IMG/VR virus record: IMGVR_UViG_3300035127_000009
Location: 1-43,270 of that record
Source of the DNA: a virus
DNA length: 43,270 bases
Reading direction: 5' to 3' (one strand)
How positions within the stretch are numbered: position 1 is the first letter of the stretch; the number at the start of each line of letters is the position of its first letter. Positions 2,347 to 39,293 of this stretch are shown in pieces. A program made the translations under genes and the position numbers. Under the pieces are notes generated by a model. The model saw nothing but the letters and a program-made list of their open reading frames with translations. It was not told the DNA's origin and ran no database searches.

Positions 2347-2475
2347 CTCATATCCTCCTAATAAAAAAATCCCGATAACGTGTGAGGTTTGGCAAGCTCT
2401 TTTGTGAAGCCACGCTACCGGGATATAACCCGCGTCGAAATTGTCAGTTGTTAGGTCGCTTGCCAGAAACCTCAC
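2347..2475 (-). ncRNA. structured 5' leader with pseudoknot / attenuator potential
   Basis: On the minus strand, GTGAGGTTTCTGGCAAGC (2475-2458) pairs with GCTTGCCAAACCTCAC (2397-2382), giving about 16 bp with a two-base bulge. ATCCCG (2424-2419) pairs with CGGGAT (2374-2369). The two helices interleave. The second helix is followed by seven T residues, so it resembles a terminator and could compete with the first. An AGGAGG site and the 2346 start follow directly. The first helix begins at the predicted transcription start. A CAGTTGT/ACAACTG repeat (2474-2480, 2445-2451) offers another fold. Confidence 0.6.
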
Positions 2476-2480
2476 AACTG

Positions 2481-2509
2481 AATATACCCCATCACAGCCA
2501 CAAAATCAA
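2481..2509 (-). promoter_or_regulatory. sigma70-type promoter
   Basis: On the minus strand, TTGATT (2504-2509) is followed after 17 bases by TATATT (2481-2486). The predicted start is near 2475. It drives the structured leader and the 2149-2346 gene. The box quality and exact 17-base spacing make it credible. Confidence 0.65.
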
Positions 2510-3119: not shown

Positions 3120-3315
3120 GATGTTACTCCTCTGTTAATCAGCGCGCGGTAATGTCGGCTCCCGCGCTTGATCTTATCAGACCCCCGACATGGGCCTTTG
3201 CCGCTATGCCCTTCCATATGGACTCGGATTTTGCGGCGGTGTCACGTGCAGCTTTGGGGTCTATTCGCCCCGGCCTGTTGGCTCTAAGCGGCGTGTCACG
3301 TGACGCTTTCAGAAA
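3120..3315 (-). other. GC-rich structured spacer with an open frame lacking a start
   Basis: A gap of almost 200 bases with unusual composition. On the minus strand, the frame of the 3316-3504 gene continues after its TAA for about 55 codons with protein-like content, rich in Ala, Lys and Arg, and no ATG, GTG or TTG. Two near-copies of CACGTGACAC lie about 60 bases apart. Near the 3' end, ATGTCGG and CCGACAT interleave with GCGCGG and CCGCGC. It could be a decayed gene, readthrough coding or a structured leader of 3119. Confidence 0.45.
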
Positions 3316-3556: not shown

Positions 3557-3967
3557 TCAGTCCCAAGTAGCCTCGTCAGCTTCGAGAAAAGTATTTTTTT
3601 CCTCAGCCGTCATTGGAAAACCCCAATGTTCAGGATTCAAAACAATGAACGGTTCAAGCTCATCTGCAAAGTCTTTCAGATAAGCGCCAATGGCTGATTT
3701 AAACGGCTCTTGGGACATAAGCTTATCGCATCTATCAAGCTTGAACGATATCCTGTACTCGTTCTCAACTGAGCAGCAGGAACATGCAACCACAATCTCA
3801 TCATCCATATAATAACGTTTAAGTGTGCCTTGATTGCACTGTTCTGGACAAGCTGCTGTTAAAAATACTTCATGCTCGTCAAGGTCGATGACCTCAACGT
3901 CTGCCAGCTGCTTTATACCAAGCAGCTGCATTCCTTTGTCTGTTTCATATTCTATTGTGCGTCTCAT
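3557..3967 (-). CDS. hypothetical Cys-containing protein (136 aa)
   Basis: It starts MRRTIEYETDKG; the GTG just before the ATG is less likely. A GAGGAG site precedes it. Cysteines occur as CPEQC and CSCC around residues 40-65, suggesting a zinc ribbon, followed by a helical acidic C-terminus. It is the gene served by the structured leader at 3971-4094. No family recognised. Confidence 0.6.
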   Translation of the reverse strand: MRRTIEYETDKGMQLLGIKQLADVEVIDLDEHEVFLTAACPEQCNQGTLKRYYMDDEIVVACSCCSVENEYRISFKLDRCDKLMSQEPFKSAIGAYLKDFADELEPFIVLNPEHWGFPMTAEEKNTFLEADEATWD

Positions 3968-3970
3968 CAC

Positions 3971-4094
3971 TTGCTCTCCTCATCTCCTCAAATCGCAGGC
4001 GACGGCCCAAAGGCGTGAGGGTTTCGAACCCTCTGACGAGGCCTTGCCTTTAAGCATCCGGTTCCGCCAGAAGGCCGCCAGACCTGCGGAGTTT
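3971..4094 (-). ncRNA. structured leader with a tRNA T-arm-like hairpin
   Basis: The whole gap between two minus-strand genes folds. GCAGG/CCTGC and CGGCC/GGCCG (3995-4007 with 4073-4087) close an outer stem. Inside are a CTGG/CCGG hairpin (4058-4070) and a longer hairpin, AAAGGC/GCCTTT (4009-4014, 4046-4051). The longer hairpin ends in GAGGG-TTCGAAA-CCCTC, which is a perfect tRNA T-arm. D and anticodon arms are missing, so it is not a tRNA gene. A leader or tRNA mimic for the 3967 gene is plausible. Confidence 0.5.
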
Positions 4095-8528: not shown

Positions 8529-11500
8529 GAGATATACGCCTCCCCGGCGCAGTAATTAGCATCGTCCGAGCTTGGAAGGAAAAACACCTGATAGCCATTT
8601 GGTATCGTGGCCGCTGTTATTGTTGTCTCTGTACCGTCGAAATGGTTTGCCCTATTCGTCGTCAATTGAACTGCATCGTTTAGGGTTACTGTCTCCCCAG
8701 AAGGGTCAACCATGACAATGTGAAAATCGTAATTGTCTACATCAGCTCGCGCCCAAACTGAATCAAGATTCGCATTTCCGCCTGTAGTATTCCGCCACAG
8801 GAATACAGCAGTATCGCCAGACGTTGCGGTCAGAAGCGTGTCCGGAAACGGTACTGCCCAACGTGCTATATGAGTTCCCAACTTTGATTTTGTTACGGCC
8901 CCATCTGCAAGCTCCGCACTATTGATAGAACCGTCCGCATAATGTTCGTTATCAATCGAGCCATCAACATAAGAATCTGAATCAATCGCATTCGCGCCTA
9001 TTGTAACAACGCCGACGTTTGTCATTGTAACATCACCCGACAAGGCCGCATAATTTACTGTCCCGGCTCCTGTGCCTATCGGGATTTCAGTGTCGGCAAT
9101 CCCTGAAGCGCCATCACTCTCAAGAGCATTTGTCTCGGCTGTTAGATAAGAACCTAAATCGCCAATGTCCGCTTCTTCGAGTGTACCATCGATAATACCC
9201 CCGGCTGGATTTAGAGCGCCATCTATTTTCACGGCCTCATTGAAATAGGCACTTCCAGCCTGTACGAATAATGCAGAATCTGCAAGTTCTGCATTTATCT
9301 TTAGGCCAGACATATCGGCATCTTCTGTATGCACCATTCCTGCCCATGCGCCAGCTACGGGGTTTCCGGTATGCTGATGAACGTGCAATACGCCGCTATT
9401 ATTAGTGAAATTTCCAACAGCTTCTACCTCAAATTGTCCAGTTGAAGCGGAAACCCCTATTGTATTTGAGCCAAACGAAATTGTTTTATTCCCCGTGGCA
9501 TCGCCAATTTCATTTATCAGAACTGCATCGGTGGGTATCGTTGCGGCGCCGGAATTAGCCAGAGACAAATCACCGGTAACAGCTGCGTAATTTCCTGTAC
9601 CAGCTCCGGTTCCAATGAATATTTCTGTATCTGCGATATTGGCCGCGCCATCGCCTTCCAAGTCGTTTGTTTCGGCTGTCAAGTAGCTTGCCAAGATACC
9701 TTTTTTCAGATTGCCGGTATCGTTTGGGTCGGCATAGTATACCGTGTCTCCAGCCGCCAAAGCGGCGTGCGTCAATCCCTTCAAAGCAGTTTCACCGCTT
9801 AAAGAGGCTTCGGCGGAAAAAGTAATTATCGATGCCGCGCCAACTGCCGAAACGTCTATGCCATCAACATTGCCAGAGGTTGTAATATTTTCATCCGCAA
9901 AATCAACCGTTCCCCCGGCGGCTGATATATTCAGGTTCCCAGCCCCTACCGCTAAAAGTGCGTTAGTCTGGTTATGACTCAATTCTATATAATCGCTTGC
10001 TGCCGTAGCATCTGCGGAATAAACTCTTAGAGTCGGGTCGGCTACCGTCCCGGAAGGATTGCGGTTAGCGTTTCCTAAATCAGCATATTCCATCAAGCTA
10101 AAGTATCCTGCACCAGCCGCTCCGCCTACCTTGATACCAAGCTGGGCATGGTCGTTACCGCTTGTCTCCCATTGCAATCCAATATCATCGCCACCGCCTA
10201 TCGTTAGTTGTGTATCGTCCGTGTCTATCTTAAGTCCCGCCTGAGCTTCTATTTCCTTATTGAAGGCAAACAATGAATTCGAATTATCCCATATTAAAGT
10301 TGCGTCCGGCGAAGCATCCGTGTCAAAAGTTATCGTAAGATTCTGGTCTGAATTGTCGCCAAGTGCAACAGCATTGCCGCTTAAAGTTAGATTTCCGGTA
10401 GCAACGATATTACCAGTAGAATCAACCCCGAATTGCCTTGTATTCCCTATCTCCAAATCAAGCGGATAAAGGCTCTTGTAAAGCCTGACAAAGAAAGAAT
10501 CGGCATCGCTTGAGACAACCAAAGACGTATCAGCAACCCAAATAAATTCCGCGTTGCCCTCTAAAGTGCCGTCTCCAGTCCAAACGCCTATTTGATTGTC
10601 AACCGGCGTTCCTACTTTCGATACGTCGCCTGACCCGGCTGGTGTTGACCATGTAGGTGCCGATGAGGCTCCTTGCGATTGCAAGTACGTCCCGGAAGAA
10701 CCAAGAGATAATTCTGTTATTACATTTGAGCCGTCAGAATAGAACACCCGCCATGCCGTATTTCCTGCCAGAGTTGTAAGGTCAGCATCGAGCGGCTGAT
10801 AGCCCGCGATAGCTTGCGATTGAGTCAACAAGCCGTCAACCCCTACCGAGTCAACCCACGGCGAACGTATAGCAAGACGTGTAATCTCGTGGTCACTAAC
10901 AGTCAAATATGCAGGTGTACCAACGACCGACAAAGCCTCATCCCCCGTATTTGTTCCGCTAAGATTTGAGCCAGTAATCACACCATCGACCGTAAAACTT
11001 GAATCCGTCGGAGAGTAAGCCAGATTAGGCCCGCCCGTATCGTCATCATCAAGTGCAAGTGAATCCTGATAAGTTGCAGACCGGAAATGAACCGTTGCCG
11101 AATCCGGGAATGTTGCTCGTGGAAAATAATCGGCTGAAGTGTTTTCCGCCTCTGTCCATACATCAACCCAAGTATTATCACCGCGCCAAAACGTGGATGA
11201 GGATGCTCCTGTCCCTGTGTTCATCATCCCGGCAGTGACGGCTATCTCATCGGCTCCGGTATCTTCATGCTCACTCGCATGTGTTTCCTCTTCCAAATCC
11301 GCTGTTATGTCCGTGCCCGCATTCTGGTCTGCAATAGCTGCCGCTGCTAATGTCCCACCGCCTGCGTTATTCTCGTGGTCATGAGTTGCATTTGTAAAAT
11401 CCCCGATAGTCGGAGTTGTAAGAGTCTTATTTGTCAAAGTCTGAGTATGCGCCTGAAATACAATGCTATCAGCAGCCGTCAAAAGAGGAAAATAAACCTG

Positions 11501-14535: not shown

Positions 14536-16280
14536 GTTGAACCTAAATAAATAGCTTCAAATCTTGATTGACCCCCGTCAAGGTCTTTCTCAAGCTTGAC
14601 GGGCCAATACTTCTTGCTGTCGTAATTAAAACCATCAATTGGGTTGTATTCTATCCCGTCAACTAAAAACTTATCAGCCCGATTATAAGGCAACATTTCA
14701 GACCGATATTGATGCCACAAGTTAGCAAGCAATTGCCCGCTTGCAATATAACCATCAACCGTGCTATCCCAATCGTCATCTTTAACGTAATCAACCCCAC
14801 TGACACCACTCCCATTCCATTGAGATACATTTGTAGAACCAAAACCACTAAGCCACCATAACCAGGGCAACGTATTTTCACGCTTTAAAGTTGAACTATC
14901 AAGAACAGTAAAGTCACCAGCATCAAAGTACTTGTTCCTTGATGCTCCAAATGTCTGTGATATTTTTACATATTTGTAAAGCGGGTACTTATAACCCTTT
15001 TGATGAGAGTGAACGTCTCCAAGAGTTTGAAGATTTCCACTATCATAATGATATAGTTTATAAAAAAATGCTTTTCTTTGATGAAGCAACCCGGTATAAC
15101 AGAACCAATCTATAGCAAGCTTTTTTAATAAGTCAGCTAATGTTGAAACTCCTGCATCAGCTTCGCCGAACAGATTAGAACAAAGCATATATGTTTCATC
15201 ATCCCATACTGCCGTATTAACTTGTTGCGATGTTCCGCCGCTCGTATATGATTGAGCAGTTGCAAGGCCGACTTTGTAGTTTGTTGTATCGACAATATCA
15301 GTAACTGTCCATATGTCATTGAGATCTGTCATTCCGACGACTTCACGAATCATCACCTCATCACTCACAGATAAACCATGAGTGCCGCTCGTCGTTACCT
15401 GTACCTTTGTATCCCCGTCTGTTGAAACTGCATTAGATATATCCCTTTGCACTCCAGCGCCGTAAAGTAAATCCCATCCAGGGCCATCTATTGTAAAAGT
15501 TGCCGTATCCGCAACAATAGAAGAATCGACGAATTGGTAAATTTCATCAAGTATCGTATAGATGGTTTTATTCAAACCAAAACTCATTATCTGAACTGTG
15601 CCACCGCTAACATAAGTTTGGTCTGTTTCAAGCTCTATCTCAAACTGTGTATTTGATACTTCATTATAAATCTCAAATGCCCGGTTCAAATCTGTCATTC
15701 CAGTAACACCAGAAATAAATATCTTCGTATTGTCATTAAAGTTTGCGTTTGAAGCATGTGTTACCGTCACTAATCCGGTTCCGCTGTCCCATGTCGCAGC
15801 AGATATACTTTCGCTATCTCCGGTTGACAAACCAAGCGGGTCAAGAGGATTCCCATCATCGTCATAGATAGCGGTGCGATTTAATATGTCAAGTTGCGGT
15901 ATTGCTTTGAAGTTCAAAATTTTTGTGCCTTCATCCCATCGGGCCTCATTATCAGGAACTATACCTATAAAGTCGGTTGTGCCGTCAACTTTTATTTGTA
16001 CTTCAAATTGTTTCTCTGTCAATGTGTTCTCAAATATCAAGTTGCTTATATAGCTATTTGGGTCAATGATAATTGAGCTTAATTCACCCGGCATAAGCAA
16101 AGTGTTTTCAAGGTCGAATTCCCATTTCAATCTTCCATATTTTTCTATGGCAAGATTTTGATCGCCTGAGCTGACATTCTGATTTGAGCCGGTATCATTC
16201 ACAGTGAAAATCAATATCATCTGAACCGTATTGCTACCGACCGTATCTTGTGGAAATGTTACTGTTATTGTGTATGACAT
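14532..16280 (-). CDS. tail tip / hub protein with FCCH-like repeats
   Basis: A 582-residue protein directly after the tape measure. The N-terminal ~130 residues (YGRLKWEFDLENTLLMPGE, KQFEVQIKVDG) look like a phage tail hub. Two ~65-residue repeats (VTVTHASNANFNDNTK ... and VQVTTSGTHGLSVSDE ...), each with GMTDLN and a closing SGGT, resemble the E1 FCCH-type repeat found in phage tail proteins. The C-terminal half is less characteristic. Position and repeats support a distal tail role. Confidence 0.65.
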   Translation of the reverse strand: MSYTITVTFPQDTVGSNTVQMILIFTVNDTGSNQNVSSGDQNLAIEKYGRLKWEFDLENTLLMPGELSSIIIDPNSYISNLIFENTLTEKQFEVQIKVDGTTDFIGIVPDNEARWDEGTKILNFKAIPQLDILNRTAIYDDDGNPLDPLGLSTGDSESISAATWDSGTGLVTVTHASNANFNDNTKIFISGVTGMTDLNRAFEIYNEVSNTQFEIELETDQTYVSGGTVQIMSFGLNKTIYTILDEIYQFVDSSIVADTATFTIDGPGWDLLYGAGVQRDISNAVSTDGDTKVQVTTSGTHGLSVSDEVMIREVVGMTDLNDIWTVTDIVDTTNYKVGLATAQSYTSGGTSQQVNTAVWDDETYMLCSNLFGEADAGVSTLADLLKKLAIDWFCYTGLLHQRKAFFYKLYHYDSGNLQTLGDVHSHQKGYKYPLYKYVKISQTFGASRNKYFDAGDFTVLDSSTLKRENTLPWLWWLSGFGSTNVSQWNGSGVSGVDYVKDDDWDSTVDGYIASGQLLANLWHQYRSEMLPYNRADKFLVDGIEYNPIDGFNYDSKKYWPVKLEKDLDGGQSRFEAIYLGST

Positions 16281-25167: not shown

Positions 25168-26706
25168 CTAATTTATACGTGAAATTAAATCTCGAATCTT
25201 TTGCGCAATAGCGTTAGCCTCTTCGGTCTGGCCGGTATCAACGGCTCTCTGCTTCGCTAATGCCAGCTGCTGAATTGCAAGGGGAAGTTTACCAAGCTCA
25301 TCATCCCCGGTATTGCCTTGCTCAAGTAGTCTTGCAAATTCATCGTCTACATCATCAACCCGTGGGTCTTGCTCAAGTAGAGTCCTTTGAGATAGCTTCA
25401 CGCCTGACTGATTGCTCAATTCAATCTGTTCTTTATGATTGGCAATCATATTTTTGTTAAACGTGAACTTGAATTCTTCTACATTCTCAACTCTTTTTTG
25501 CCCTAATATCTCTTTATAAGTTGTTACGAACCACATCAACTCGTAAAGAGCAAATTCAAGCTTTCTTTGCAGGAGTCCAGCTTTCAAGTCAAGCGGCAGG
25601 TAAAGCCAGTTCAAAGCAACACCTGAAGGATTCTGTCCAAAAACATCTGTCTTCGCGTCTATTGACTGGCCAAAAACATTGATATTCTCTTCGGCATTCT
25701 TCATCCATGCCATCTTCGCTTCATAAGGAATATCAAGAGACATATAATCAATATCAACATCCTCTGCATTTGCTCCGGTAGAAATCACCTTGAACATTTT
25801 GTAATTTCGCCTAATCTCTGATGGTGTGTCACTCAATCCGATTGCCTTTATAATAGCCTCTTGAATATCCTCAAGGTCATTGGCAAGAATAGAGTCTTGC
25901 ATGTCATAGGCATCAATCAGAGTTTTAATAAACCTTAAGTCTGAAATCTTGCCCATGTTATTAGATAGCTCAATAAACGGCACTCGTCCCCAAGAGCCCG
26001 CCACTCTCTCTTCTGAAGCTGTATTCCCTATGGTGAAATGTGGCTTCATCAATTCAAGCTTGAATACTTTATTTGCATCTTCTTCGTAAACTTCAACTTT
26101 ATCGGCAAACCACCATTCAACACGCGTTCTCGTTTCTTCCCTGTCAGAGATATTCACAACTATATCGTAATATCTTATCACAGATTCCAGTTTCTCTTGT
26201 CTGGTCGTTTCATAAATCGGTATAATTTCCCTGGCATCCATAACCATGAAATCGAATTTTGAACCATCGAAAAATATATGAAGGTATTCCCGGCCCTTGT
26301 TAGATGCGTTCGTTCCCCAATCAATTACCCGGTCGTGAAACTTCTTTCCGAGTATATCAACATATTCGTCTCTTAACGTTTCGTTATCATGTGTTATGGT
26401 TATCGGATTTTTTAAGAGATAGGAAATCTTTTCAAGTACTTGACGACGGTGAAATGGATGTGCTATTCTGTTGTTAGCCTTATCGGTCTGATAATGAACT
26501 TGACCACTTGCGTAATCAGTCCACTCAGTGAAATCATAATCAAGAATATCATGGTCAGCACCAAAGTAATTAACGCCATCCCACATCTCTTTGTATGCCC
26601 TACTACCCTCATGAATATCAATCAATTTCTCGATTATCTGAGGCTCTGTTAAAGGCGCAAGCGCCTCAAGTTGTGCTGCTGTTATTTGTTGTAAAGTTAG
26701 TTCCAT
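25168..26706 (-). CDS. portal protein (SPP1 gp6-like)
   Basis: A 512-residue protein starting MELTLQQITAAQLEAL. The pattern TDKANNRIAHPFHRRQVLEKISYLL, WGRVPFIELSNN, LIDAYDMQDSILANDLED and LNWLYLPLDLKAGLL is that of SPP1 gp6-type portals, the dodecameric ring through which DNA passes. No Shine-Dalgarno site precedes the ATG; instead a terminator-like T-run ends one base before it. The Asn/Gln-rich C-terminal part fits the crown domain. Confidence 0.85.
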   Translation of the reverse strand: MELTLQQITAAQLEALAPLTEPQIIEKLIDIHEGSRAYKEMWDGVNYFGADHDILDYDFTEWTDYASGQVHYQTDKANNRIAHPFHRRQVLEKISYLLKNPITITHDNETLRDEYVDILGKKFHDRVIDWGTNASNKGREYLHIFFDGSKFDFMVMDAREIIPIYETTRQEKLESVIRYYDIVVNISDREETRTRVEWWFADKVEVYEEDANKVFKLELMKPHFTIGNTASEERVAGSWGRVPFIELSNNMGKISDLRFIKTLIDAYDMQDSILANDLEDIQEAIIKAIGLSDTPSEIRRNYKMFKVISTGANAEDVDIDYMSLDIPYEAKMAWMKNAEENINVFGQSIDAKTDVFGQNPSGVALNWLYLPLDLKAGLLQRKLEFALYELMWFVTTYKEILGQKRVENVEEFKFTFNKNMIANHKEQIELSNQSGVKLSQRTLLEQDPRVDDVDDEFARLLEQGNTGDDELGKLPLAIQQLALAKQRAVDTGQTEEANAIAQKIRDLISRIN

Positions 26707-26761
26707 AAAAAAAGGCCATTCATCTACTCGCGCGGGGACACGCTTTCAATAAAATGGCCTT
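26707..26761 (-). terminator. intrinsic terminator ending at the portal start codon
   Basis: On the minus strand, AAGGCCATT (26761-26753) pairs with AATGGCCTT (26720-26712), a perfect nine-base stem with a ~32-base loop. A run of seven T (26713-26707) follows and abuts the ATG at 26706. It would end transcripts from the 26800-27060 gene and also affect portal expression. Confidence 0.7.
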
Positions 26762-26799
26762 CCTATTTTTAAGGTCGAGGCAATATGTCCAGATTGAGA

Positions 26800-27060
26800 C
26801 TATCTCAAATCACTCAACCGCTTCCACGGGTCTTTGATTTCTGTATGACTATCGTTTTTCATTATAGTTCCGGTAATGCTGCCGTTTCTGAAAGCGTGCC
26901 TGACTACTAAGACACCGCTGAAGTCTTGCGGCAACTCACACAAGGCAAGCGTCTTGCGCTCATAGTCTGCTTTGCATTCTTTCTCTTTGTCGAATGCTTT
27001 GTTGTATGACGTTTCATCATACCCGCTTAGACCAACGAAAGTTCGCTTTCCATTCTTCAT
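26800..27060 (-). CDS. moron-like small protein with its own promoter and terminator
   Basis: An 86-residue protein starting MKNGKRTFVGLSGYD. It is basic and soluble, with two cysteines (ECKADY, ALCELP) and a beta-rich end (GVLVVRHAFRNGSITGTI). A sigma70-type promoter (27067-27096) puts the transcription start at or next to the ATG, so the mRNA may be leaderless. A terminator follows after a ~40-base gap. This self-contained unit between terminase and portal is the hallmark of a moron gene. Function unknown. Confidence 0.65.
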   Translation of the reverse strand: MKNGKRTFVGLSGYDETSYNKAFDKEKECKADYERKTLALCELPQDFSGVLVVRHAFRNGSITGTIMKNDSHTEIKDPWKRLSDLR

Positions 27061-33696: not shown

Positions 33697-33766
33697 AGGG
33701 ACAGACTGGACTTGAACCAGCAACCGCGGGACCATTCCCTAACTCTGCCTATTGAGCTACTGCCTT
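33697..33766 (-). tRNA. degenerate tRNA-like sequence
   Basis: It shares the D arm of the tRNA-Asn (AATAGGCAGAG) and has a good T arm (CTGG-TTCAAGT-CCAG). The stretch between D and T arms is three bases shorter. The anticodon arm cannot form a canonical seven-base loop. The acceptor pairs only in part (AAGGCAG with CTGTCCC). Forced folding gives anticodon GGT (Thr) with mispaired stem. It is probably a decayed tRNA or tRNA mimic. Confidence 0.6.
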
Positions 33767-38240: not shown

Positions 38241-38552
38241 TCAATCAATTTGATAACTTACATAAGCGTCATAGCCAAGGTCTACCAACTTTTGCACAGC
38301 AGCCTCTACCATGACGGTGTTTCTGTTTGCTTGTCCAGACGATGGAACATTGACAAAGAAAGTTCCAGAGCGAGCAACAGATTTACGCAGATTCAGTTTC
38401 GAAGCTATGCGCAAATGCATACCCTTAAGTATTATCATCGCAGAATCACGGTTACAAGAACCGCCATCATTGCCCGCTCCAGGGTCTGCCTCTATTGCTG
38501 CCTGCCTTGCTTGTTTCAATGCTTCTGATAGTTTATCGATGTCATAAGCCAT
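38241..38552 (-). CDS. first gene after the structured leader, hypothetical
   Basis: A 103-residue protein starting MAYDIDKLSEALKQARQ. Helical start, one cysteine (GSCNRD), then ARSGTFFVNVPSSGQANRNTVMVEAAV. AGGAGAAC precedes the ATG. It is the first gene of the replication operon after promoter 38733-38761 and the interleaved leader, so it may be subject to RNA control. Unknown family. Confidence 0.55.
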   Translation of the reverse strand: MAYDIDKLSEALKQARQAAIEADPGAGNDGGSCNRDSAMIILKGMHLRIASKLNLRKSVARSGTFFVNVPSSGQANRNTVMVEAAVQKLVDLGYDAYVSYQID

Positions 38553-38726
38553 GATGTTCTCCTAAAATGAAAATGTCCTTACACCTGAAGCCGAGCCGCA
38601 ACGCCGAATGATAGTTTGTATCGAGCAAGAAAAATACAAATGGCACACCCGGCCCCATGTGTAAGGACACCGTTATTTCTTGCTCTAACTGTACGATTAT
38701 TCAGCCGTTGCGGAGCTGTTTAACCG
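38553..38726 (-). ncRNA. long structured leader with interleaved helices (pseudoknot)
   Basis: Three strong pairings. A: TGTCCTTACAC (minus strand, 38669-38659, top strand reads the complement) with GTGTAAGGACA (38584-38574). B: CCGCAACG-CUGAAU (38713-38699) with AUUCGG-CGUUGCGG (38609-38596), with one bulged base. C: GAGCAAGAAA (38685-38676) with TTTCTTGCTC (38632-38623). B encloses C. The 38659-38669 segment lies in the loop of C and pairs outside B, forming a pseudoknot next to the ribosome binding site of 38552. Confidence 0.65.
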
Positions 38727-39110: not shown

Positions 39111-39293
39111 TTTTCATGTCCTAAATAATGGAGCGCCCGGCCAAGCCAAGGGAAAACCAGACGCTCCGGAGTTATGAGGTAGGTTCCTAACTCCCGGCAC
39201 GGGGATACTCTATTATAATTTTGCCGGGGTCGATTAAAATCAGGCCAAACTCCTACGGTTAGGAGCGGGCCGTGTTATTGGTATCCCCGCTTA
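39111..39293 (-). ncRNA. structured intergenic region with hairpin array
   Basis: On the minus strand, in order: GGGGATAC (39288-39281); hairpin CTCCTA/TAGGAG (39265-39250); CCCGGC (39228-39223); GTATCCCC (39208-39201), which pairs with the first segment across; GCCGGG (39198-39193), which pairs with CCCGGC. Hairpins GGAGTTA/TAACTCC and GGAGCG/CGCTCC follow. GTTAGGA in the third block could pair instead with TCCTAAC in the first hairpin. A TATAAT box (39212-39217) lies inside. Confidence 0.55.

Follow-up and report, generated by a model that had tools for sequence, protein, structure and literature searches.

Ribosome-mediated transcription attenuation with a leader open reading frame (ORF) is known from trp and his and from rph-pyrE, and bmrC/bmrD is reportedly controlled in the same way. 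Other known leaders and small RNAs combine some of the same elements: C4 (P1/P7) and CI (P4) are phage immunity RNAs, preQ1 and SAM-II are pseudoknotted riboswitches, and type I toxin mRNAs show 5′-3′ pairing. Here, we describe a leader at positions 2347–2509 of an IMG/VR virus record of 43,270 bases, which was analyzed as a whole and is called the window below. We show that its architecture, in which two helices (A and B) interleave behind a promoter-like site, recurs as a class in other phages, and that the helices covary between relatives.

Like the ribosome-mediated attenuators, the leaders of this class place a promoter, a leader ORF, and a terminator-like hairpin with a U-run before a gene, and the position of the ribosome would decide the outcome. 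They differ from these attenuators in that the helices interleave rather than share bases (the overlap in the window is at most 2), the leader start doubles as one arm of a helix and pairs into the terminator loop, and the leader ORF usually crosses the terminator, its peptide not being conserved in the one pair examined. The leader may work like a ribosome-mediated attenuator minus two defining features, the shared-base antiterminator and the conserved peptide. With C4 and CI, the class has in common a phage leader whose self-complementary segments link translation and termination; unlike them, it occurs in many unrelated copies, and the Rfam scans gave no C4 match. As in pseudoknotted riboswitches and type I toxin mRNAs, a pseudoknot or 5′-end pairing would control expression; unlike preQ1 and SAM-II, the class has neither a conserved sequence nor a ligand core. 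The leaders of T4 I-TevI (PMC2988022) are similar in occurring in a phage, with homing endonuclease genes and a promoter beside the structure, and in a nested model the window copy shows a start-dependent fold. The I-TevI ribosome binding site is sequestered in long transcripts (PMC2988022), whereas that of the gene behind the window leader lies outside both helices; because this site is free, the leader is not of the I-TevI type. In the open-access literature searched, no description of such a leader was found. Sequence-based RNA searches would miss the class because only the promoter, the helix order, the U-run, and the open frame are kept.

Anatomy and folding of the window leader

All parts of the leader lie on the minus strand, in a 166-base gap between a 50-aa ORF (2513–2665) and a 65-aa gene (2149–2346). 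The features are as follows:

2481–2509 (−), promoter-like site TTGATT-17-TATATT, 9/12 consensus matches
2458–2476 (−), 5′ arm of helix A at the predicted transcript start, containing GTG at 2475–2473
2381–2397 (−), 3′ arm of helix A (A′), inside the loop of hairpin B
2411–2424 (−), 5′ arm of helix B, 2424–2411 pairing with 2382–2369
2369–2382 (−), 3′ arm of helix B (B′)
2363–2369 (−), run of seven T's after B′ in the sequence, predicted termination site
2444–2480 (−), hairpin H1, competing with A only in RNAs that start upstream of the predicted start
2149–2475 (−), leader ORF of 108 codons from GTG at 2475, open across the structure and continuing into the gene in the same frame
2149–2346 (−), downstream gene, 65 aa, ATG at 2346
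38572–38713 (−), second interleaved leader, three helices, before the gene 38241–38552, with a weak promoter

A sequence-only reading of this DNA had pointed to a promoter with 17-base spacing, to a long helix between the first bases of the RNA and a downstream segment, and to an interleaving terminator-like stem with seven T's, and all three are present. The promoter-like site is weak on its own, as 16 such sites were counted in 5 kb vs. 8.8 ± 3.5 in shuffles, and it scores below most elements of the class (10–13, TG bonus included). Helix A begins at most 5 bases past this site and is formed by two segments, 2476–2467 with 2390–2381 (10 bp, 76 nt separating the arms) and 2465–2458 with 2397–2390 (8 bp); counted together, they make a single 17-bp helix whose 5′ arm carries a 2-nt bulge. 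Helix B is a terminator-like hairpin of 14 bp, including two G-U pairs. The duplex energies are −23.5 kcal/mol for A:A′ and −21.9 kcal/mol for B:B′. The motif AGGAGG at 2359–2354 precedes the ATG at 2346 and is outside both helices. The product of the downstream gene had no match in Pfam or PHROGs.

The order of the parts, A-B-A′-B′, makes the helices interleaved. The weaker helix of the pair scored 24, while the mean in dinucleotide shuffles was 14.6 (SD 3.0) and none of 200 shuffles reached 24; the best single helix scored 32 vs. 18.3, again with no shuffle out of 200 as high. The minimum free energy of 2335–2480 corresponded to z = −2.96. A and B have no more than two bases in common; of the two options proposed earlier, mutually exclusive or interlocked, the folds are interlocked, and they would be exclusive only in a pseudoknot-free model. 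In such a nested model, an RNA starting at 2475 gave 0.97 for A:A′ and 0.00 for B, and RNAs starting at 2480 or further upstream gave 0.00 for A:A′, 0.88–0.96 for B:B′, and 0.98 for H1. Five extra 5′ bases are enough to flip the nested fold of the window from A:A′ to H1 plus B (0.98 and 0.95, respectively).

Recurrence and covariation in other phages

Neither the DNA of the window element, searched against phages, nor the downstream 65-aa protein, searched against viral contigs, had a homologue. Single-protein scans with DnaB and TerL revealed no relative, the Sak4 scan revealed two distant ones, and the alignment of the Erf clade matched none of the genome contigs. As no relative of the element was found at the DNA or protein level, the search was carried out by architecture. 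The first screen covered 80 loci fetched by Erf alignment, and the plan was present in L039, L053, L060, and L066, in most cases downstream of a strong promoter. The Erf proteins of these four loci and of L048 grouped together (48–51% identity to L053), and a scan with this group yielded 20 IMG/VR loci. The class score was defined as the sum of helix A, helix B, and twice the promoter match, with the U-run required. In the 20 loci and the window, 28 matches scored at least 66, vs. none in three shuffled sets; 24 were distinct, two of the others being on duplicate contigs and two being mirror images on the other strand. Distinct elements were found in 13 of the 20 loci of this one Erf clade, in addition to the two in the window, and up to three strong elements were present in one contig piece (L092). 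The helix sequences differed between the elements, and the plan was the same.

Beyond this clade, the class was rare: 75 other Erf loci gave five matches at a score of at least 66 vs. two in one shuffle, of which L088+3648 looks real. The outcome of looser scans depended on the parts included. A promoter-anchored scan for helix A only, run on 83 sequences, was barely above the control (31 vs. 26.3 at ≥22), and a scan anchored on the Shine-Dalgarno (SD) sequence without the U-run was modest (23 vs. 9 at ≥50); with the U-run, the SD-anchored scan returned 10 rows vs. 0.5 at ≥48, the rows representing five distinct elements. A likely element was detected in Leptolyngbya phage Lbo-JY16 (L109, position 10551, score 64) before the CDS at 10663. 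Pseudomonas Medea1, BR141b, phiAH14a, and Sphingopyxis VSN-002 were scanned in part, and no element there combined a promoter score of at least 8 with a total of at least 57, and Shewanella ZP9, Methylophilales Venkman, and MW202785 had no convincing element. The match in L108 has a promoter score of 5 and is probably due to chance, although it was retained among the 25 tested elements. The Rfam 15 scan of the window detected two tRNAs only and no family at the element, and a scan of 14 loci (L088, L109, L117, and L128 being left out) gave no match at any element; a known Rfam class was rejected at gathering score for every scanned element. One element-carrying phage, L100, encodes an int-alpA RNA (RF02996) at 15851–15917 (+), away from its element.

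Comparative alignment, suggested earlier as a check on the window leader, gave covariation in relatives within the class; the window copy itself has no homologue to align. Between L103+6004 and L104+8801, which precede homologous HNH endonucleases (40% identity), the 24 base pairs included five two-sided changes, one one-sided change, and one broken pair, and between L104+15909 and L117+3559, the 28 pairs included four two-sided changes, one one-sided change, and none broken. Slid structures had no two-sided changes in either comparison. For the third homologous pair, L089b/L091b, six pairs of helix A were counted in an alignment made by eye, and helix B was omitted because its register was ambiguous. 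The three homologous pairs together comprised 58 base pairs, with 11 two-sided changes, two one-sided changes, and one broken pair. Column shuffles reached the observed covariation in 18 of 500 trials for L103/L104 and in 32 of 500 for L104/L117, such shuffles being weak controls when the alignment has two sequences.

The genes behind the elements were examined for 10 downstream proteins. HNH_3 was identified behind L089+11488 and L103+6004, the latter protein also having an AP2 domain just under the Pfam cut-off; in the product behind L104+8801 both HNH_3 and AP2 were below the cut-off, yet it is homologous to the L103 protein. MT-A70 methyltransferase genes follow L091+13357 and L096+14655, and the remaining five of the 10 proteins had no Pfam match. 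In a PHROGs scan, 10 proteins fell into families of unknown function or into none. Among the HNH-AP2 loci, 20 of 21 of which were scanned, an element preceded the HNH gene in three, namely the L103 and L104 contigs again and L128, from a phage with a GC content of 58%, whose element (L128+2849) precedes a gene related to these HNH genes. Similar leaders precede different genes at L089 14018–14165 and L091 13357–13500 (+), which suggests a portable module. Both of these leaders also contain an extra hairpin with a T-run between A and B.

Parts of the class and possible mechanisms

Each part of the plan was tested on elements selected without that part. A promoter score of at least 10 was found in 16 of 27 elements, a set that includes three mirror images and three matches in L108 and L109, vs. 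0.6% of random positions. A T-rich tail was present in 20/24 (14.9% expected from the control), and an SD sequence with an ORF of at least 40 codons followed within 45 nt after B′ in 18/25 (vs. 10.4%), the remaining seven having no gene start by the rule used. A leader ORF beginning within or near A had no stop codon up to the end of B′ in 22 of 25 elements, vs. 6.7 ± 2.1 in shuffles; the exceptions were L097, L100-16753, and L102+16815. Across the class, A:A′ amounted to about −12 to −33 and B:B′ to −9 to −25 kcal/mol, and the hairpin loops were unusually long for intrinsic terminators. Between the predicted start and B, the RNA had a folding energy of 0 to −2.6 kcal/mol in 18 of the 24 elements; in six, including the window, this stretch was more stable. 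When the nested model was applied to 24 elements at their own starts, A won in nine and B in 13, and two were mixed. Thus, the balance between A and B is not uniform across the class, and by this model the two helices would either coexist as a pseudoknot or be decided by the order of folding.

The leader ORF was tabulated for 18 of the 25 elements (L092+5925, L094, L095, L097, L100-16753, L108, and the window element at 38.6 kb were omitted), and in L103+6004 and L104+8801, which have two open frames, the one starting at A was taken. The start codon lay 5–10 nt past the −10 box, at or beside the predicted first base, in 11/18. Eight elements had the leader stop no more than 4 nt away from the gene start, in three, including the window, the frame continued into the gene, and in the other seven the stop lay at other distances, between 37 nt before and 26 nt after the gene start. 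L128, found later, has an open leader ending in an ATGA overlap. Substitutions between the L103 and L104 leaders were distributed over the three codon positions as 8, 7, and 6 of about 30 each; this equal change indicates that openness is kept and not the peptide, and a conserved leader peptide was ruled out in this sole pair tested. In L094 5175–5345 (+), which shares its contig with L060, the A word of 10 bases (CTTGTCATGG) recurs at the gene's own start, so that one A′ could close either start.

The proposal of an attenuator-like leader at a promoter agrees with the anatomy and with the recurrence and covariation in other phages. It overlooked the leader ORF, however, and as this frame starts in A and passes through the terminator, the likely mechanism changes. 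We consider the chances evenly balanced that the leader is a pseudoknotted, translation-licensed transcription attenuator. In such a mechanism, the RNA would begin with the start codon of the leader ORF or with SD bases, and an early ribosome on the leader ORF, trailing RNA polymerase, would prevent both A:A′ and B:B′ pairing. The polymerase would then cross the U-run and reach the gene; the leader ORF, which often ends at the gene start, may provide translational coupling. A coupled ribosome is reported to prevent intrinsic terminator hairpins (PMC5021804). If the leader received no timely ribosome, A′ would capture A and shut the leader start, B would pair with B′, and transcription would stop; the released RNA would mostly be devoid of a leader stop codon, and the shut start would also prevent futile translation. 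Several features of the window copy speak against an attenuator, namely the missing homologue, the 9-of-12 promoter, a leader ORF that is not significant alone (shuffle p 0.25), and a comparatively stable fold (−9.0 kcal/mol) of the RNA between the predicted start and B; in addition, A and B have hardly any base in common, in contrast to a classical antiterminator and terminator.

The broader reading has a probability somewhat short of even. It holds that the elements form a phage riboregulator class defined by geometry, in which an intrinsic terminator uses its loop to trap the beginning of its own transcript, in many cases a leaderless start codon, and transcription of accessory genes such as homing endonucleases and methyltransferases is restricted to RNAs already entered by a ribosome. 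If working as proposed, the leader would act as a compact gate that needs no ligand and ties transcription to a prompt start of translation. It would add a new way of controlling accessory phage genes and offer a means to study transcription-translation coupling and leaderless initiation.

Among the alternatives, a start-site-addressed terminator similar to that of T4 appears unlikely. RNAs from the local promoter would form A:A′ and read on, and read-through RNAs from upstream would form H1 plus B and stop. The flip of the nested fold between 5′ ends at 2475 and 2480 is consistent with it, as are the I-TevI structures, which form only on longer transcripts (PMC2988022). Nevertheless, a clear flip from A to B was found in the window only, among 24 elements, and a general start-site flip was therefore rejected; L096+14655 flips partly and L102+16815 the opposite way. 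The open leader ORF would also be left unexplained.

Control of translation or mRNA decay only, with a knot that shields the 5′ end or paces ribosomes and a U-run that does not terminate, seems rather improbable. The location of the 5′ end within helix A and the eight of 18 leader stops close to the gene start fit this explanation, and L105+2865 and L098+5001 have a promoter and both helices with no T-rich tail; against it stands the tail itself, present in 20/24 elements that were selected without it. We give still less credence to a self-contained, terminated small RNA, in which a promoter, a stable knotted RNA, and a terminator would form a unit and the gene would be fed by read-through. 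Every element has a promoter, an RNA of ~90–150 nt, and a U-run, but such an RNA needs neither an SD sequence and gene start within 45 nt (18/25) nor an ORF through the hairpin (22/25). Chance inverted repeats or a mobile-element remnant are very improbable: A and A′ resemble terminal inverted repeats of one short word, yet none of 200 shuffles was as good, the class recurs and covaries, and B straddles the edge of the A repeat, with one half on either side. Mobile-element ends were likewise rejected.

Other structured sites in the window

The same plan had also been reported for the leader at 38.6 kb. The helices there are well supported (0/200 shuffles as good), whereas no minus-strand site there was seen to match a promoter at 9 of 12 positions.

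Further structured sites were observed on the minus strand. The gap at 3968–4094, before the ORF 3557–3967, contains a hairpin resembling a tRNA T-arm (GAGGGTTCGAAACCCTC) within a bulged closing helix. The gaps at 39111–39293 and 3120–3315 are long and strongly structured in a genome whose genes elsewhere touch; their interleaved helices are weaker, with 11/200 and 5/200 shuffles as good, respectively. At 26709–26898, interleaved helices lie just before the portal gene (25168–26706), the second being a terminator-like hairpin with a T-run and the first having an arm in the preceding gene. The stretch at 33697–33766 is the second tRNA-like one; it scored 30.3 bits, barely above the Rfam cut-off, and ARAGORN made no call. 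Base 1 of the record truncates a Sak4-like gene (1–392), and at the opposite end an open frame runs in on that strand too, a pattern that resembles a circularly permuted genome.
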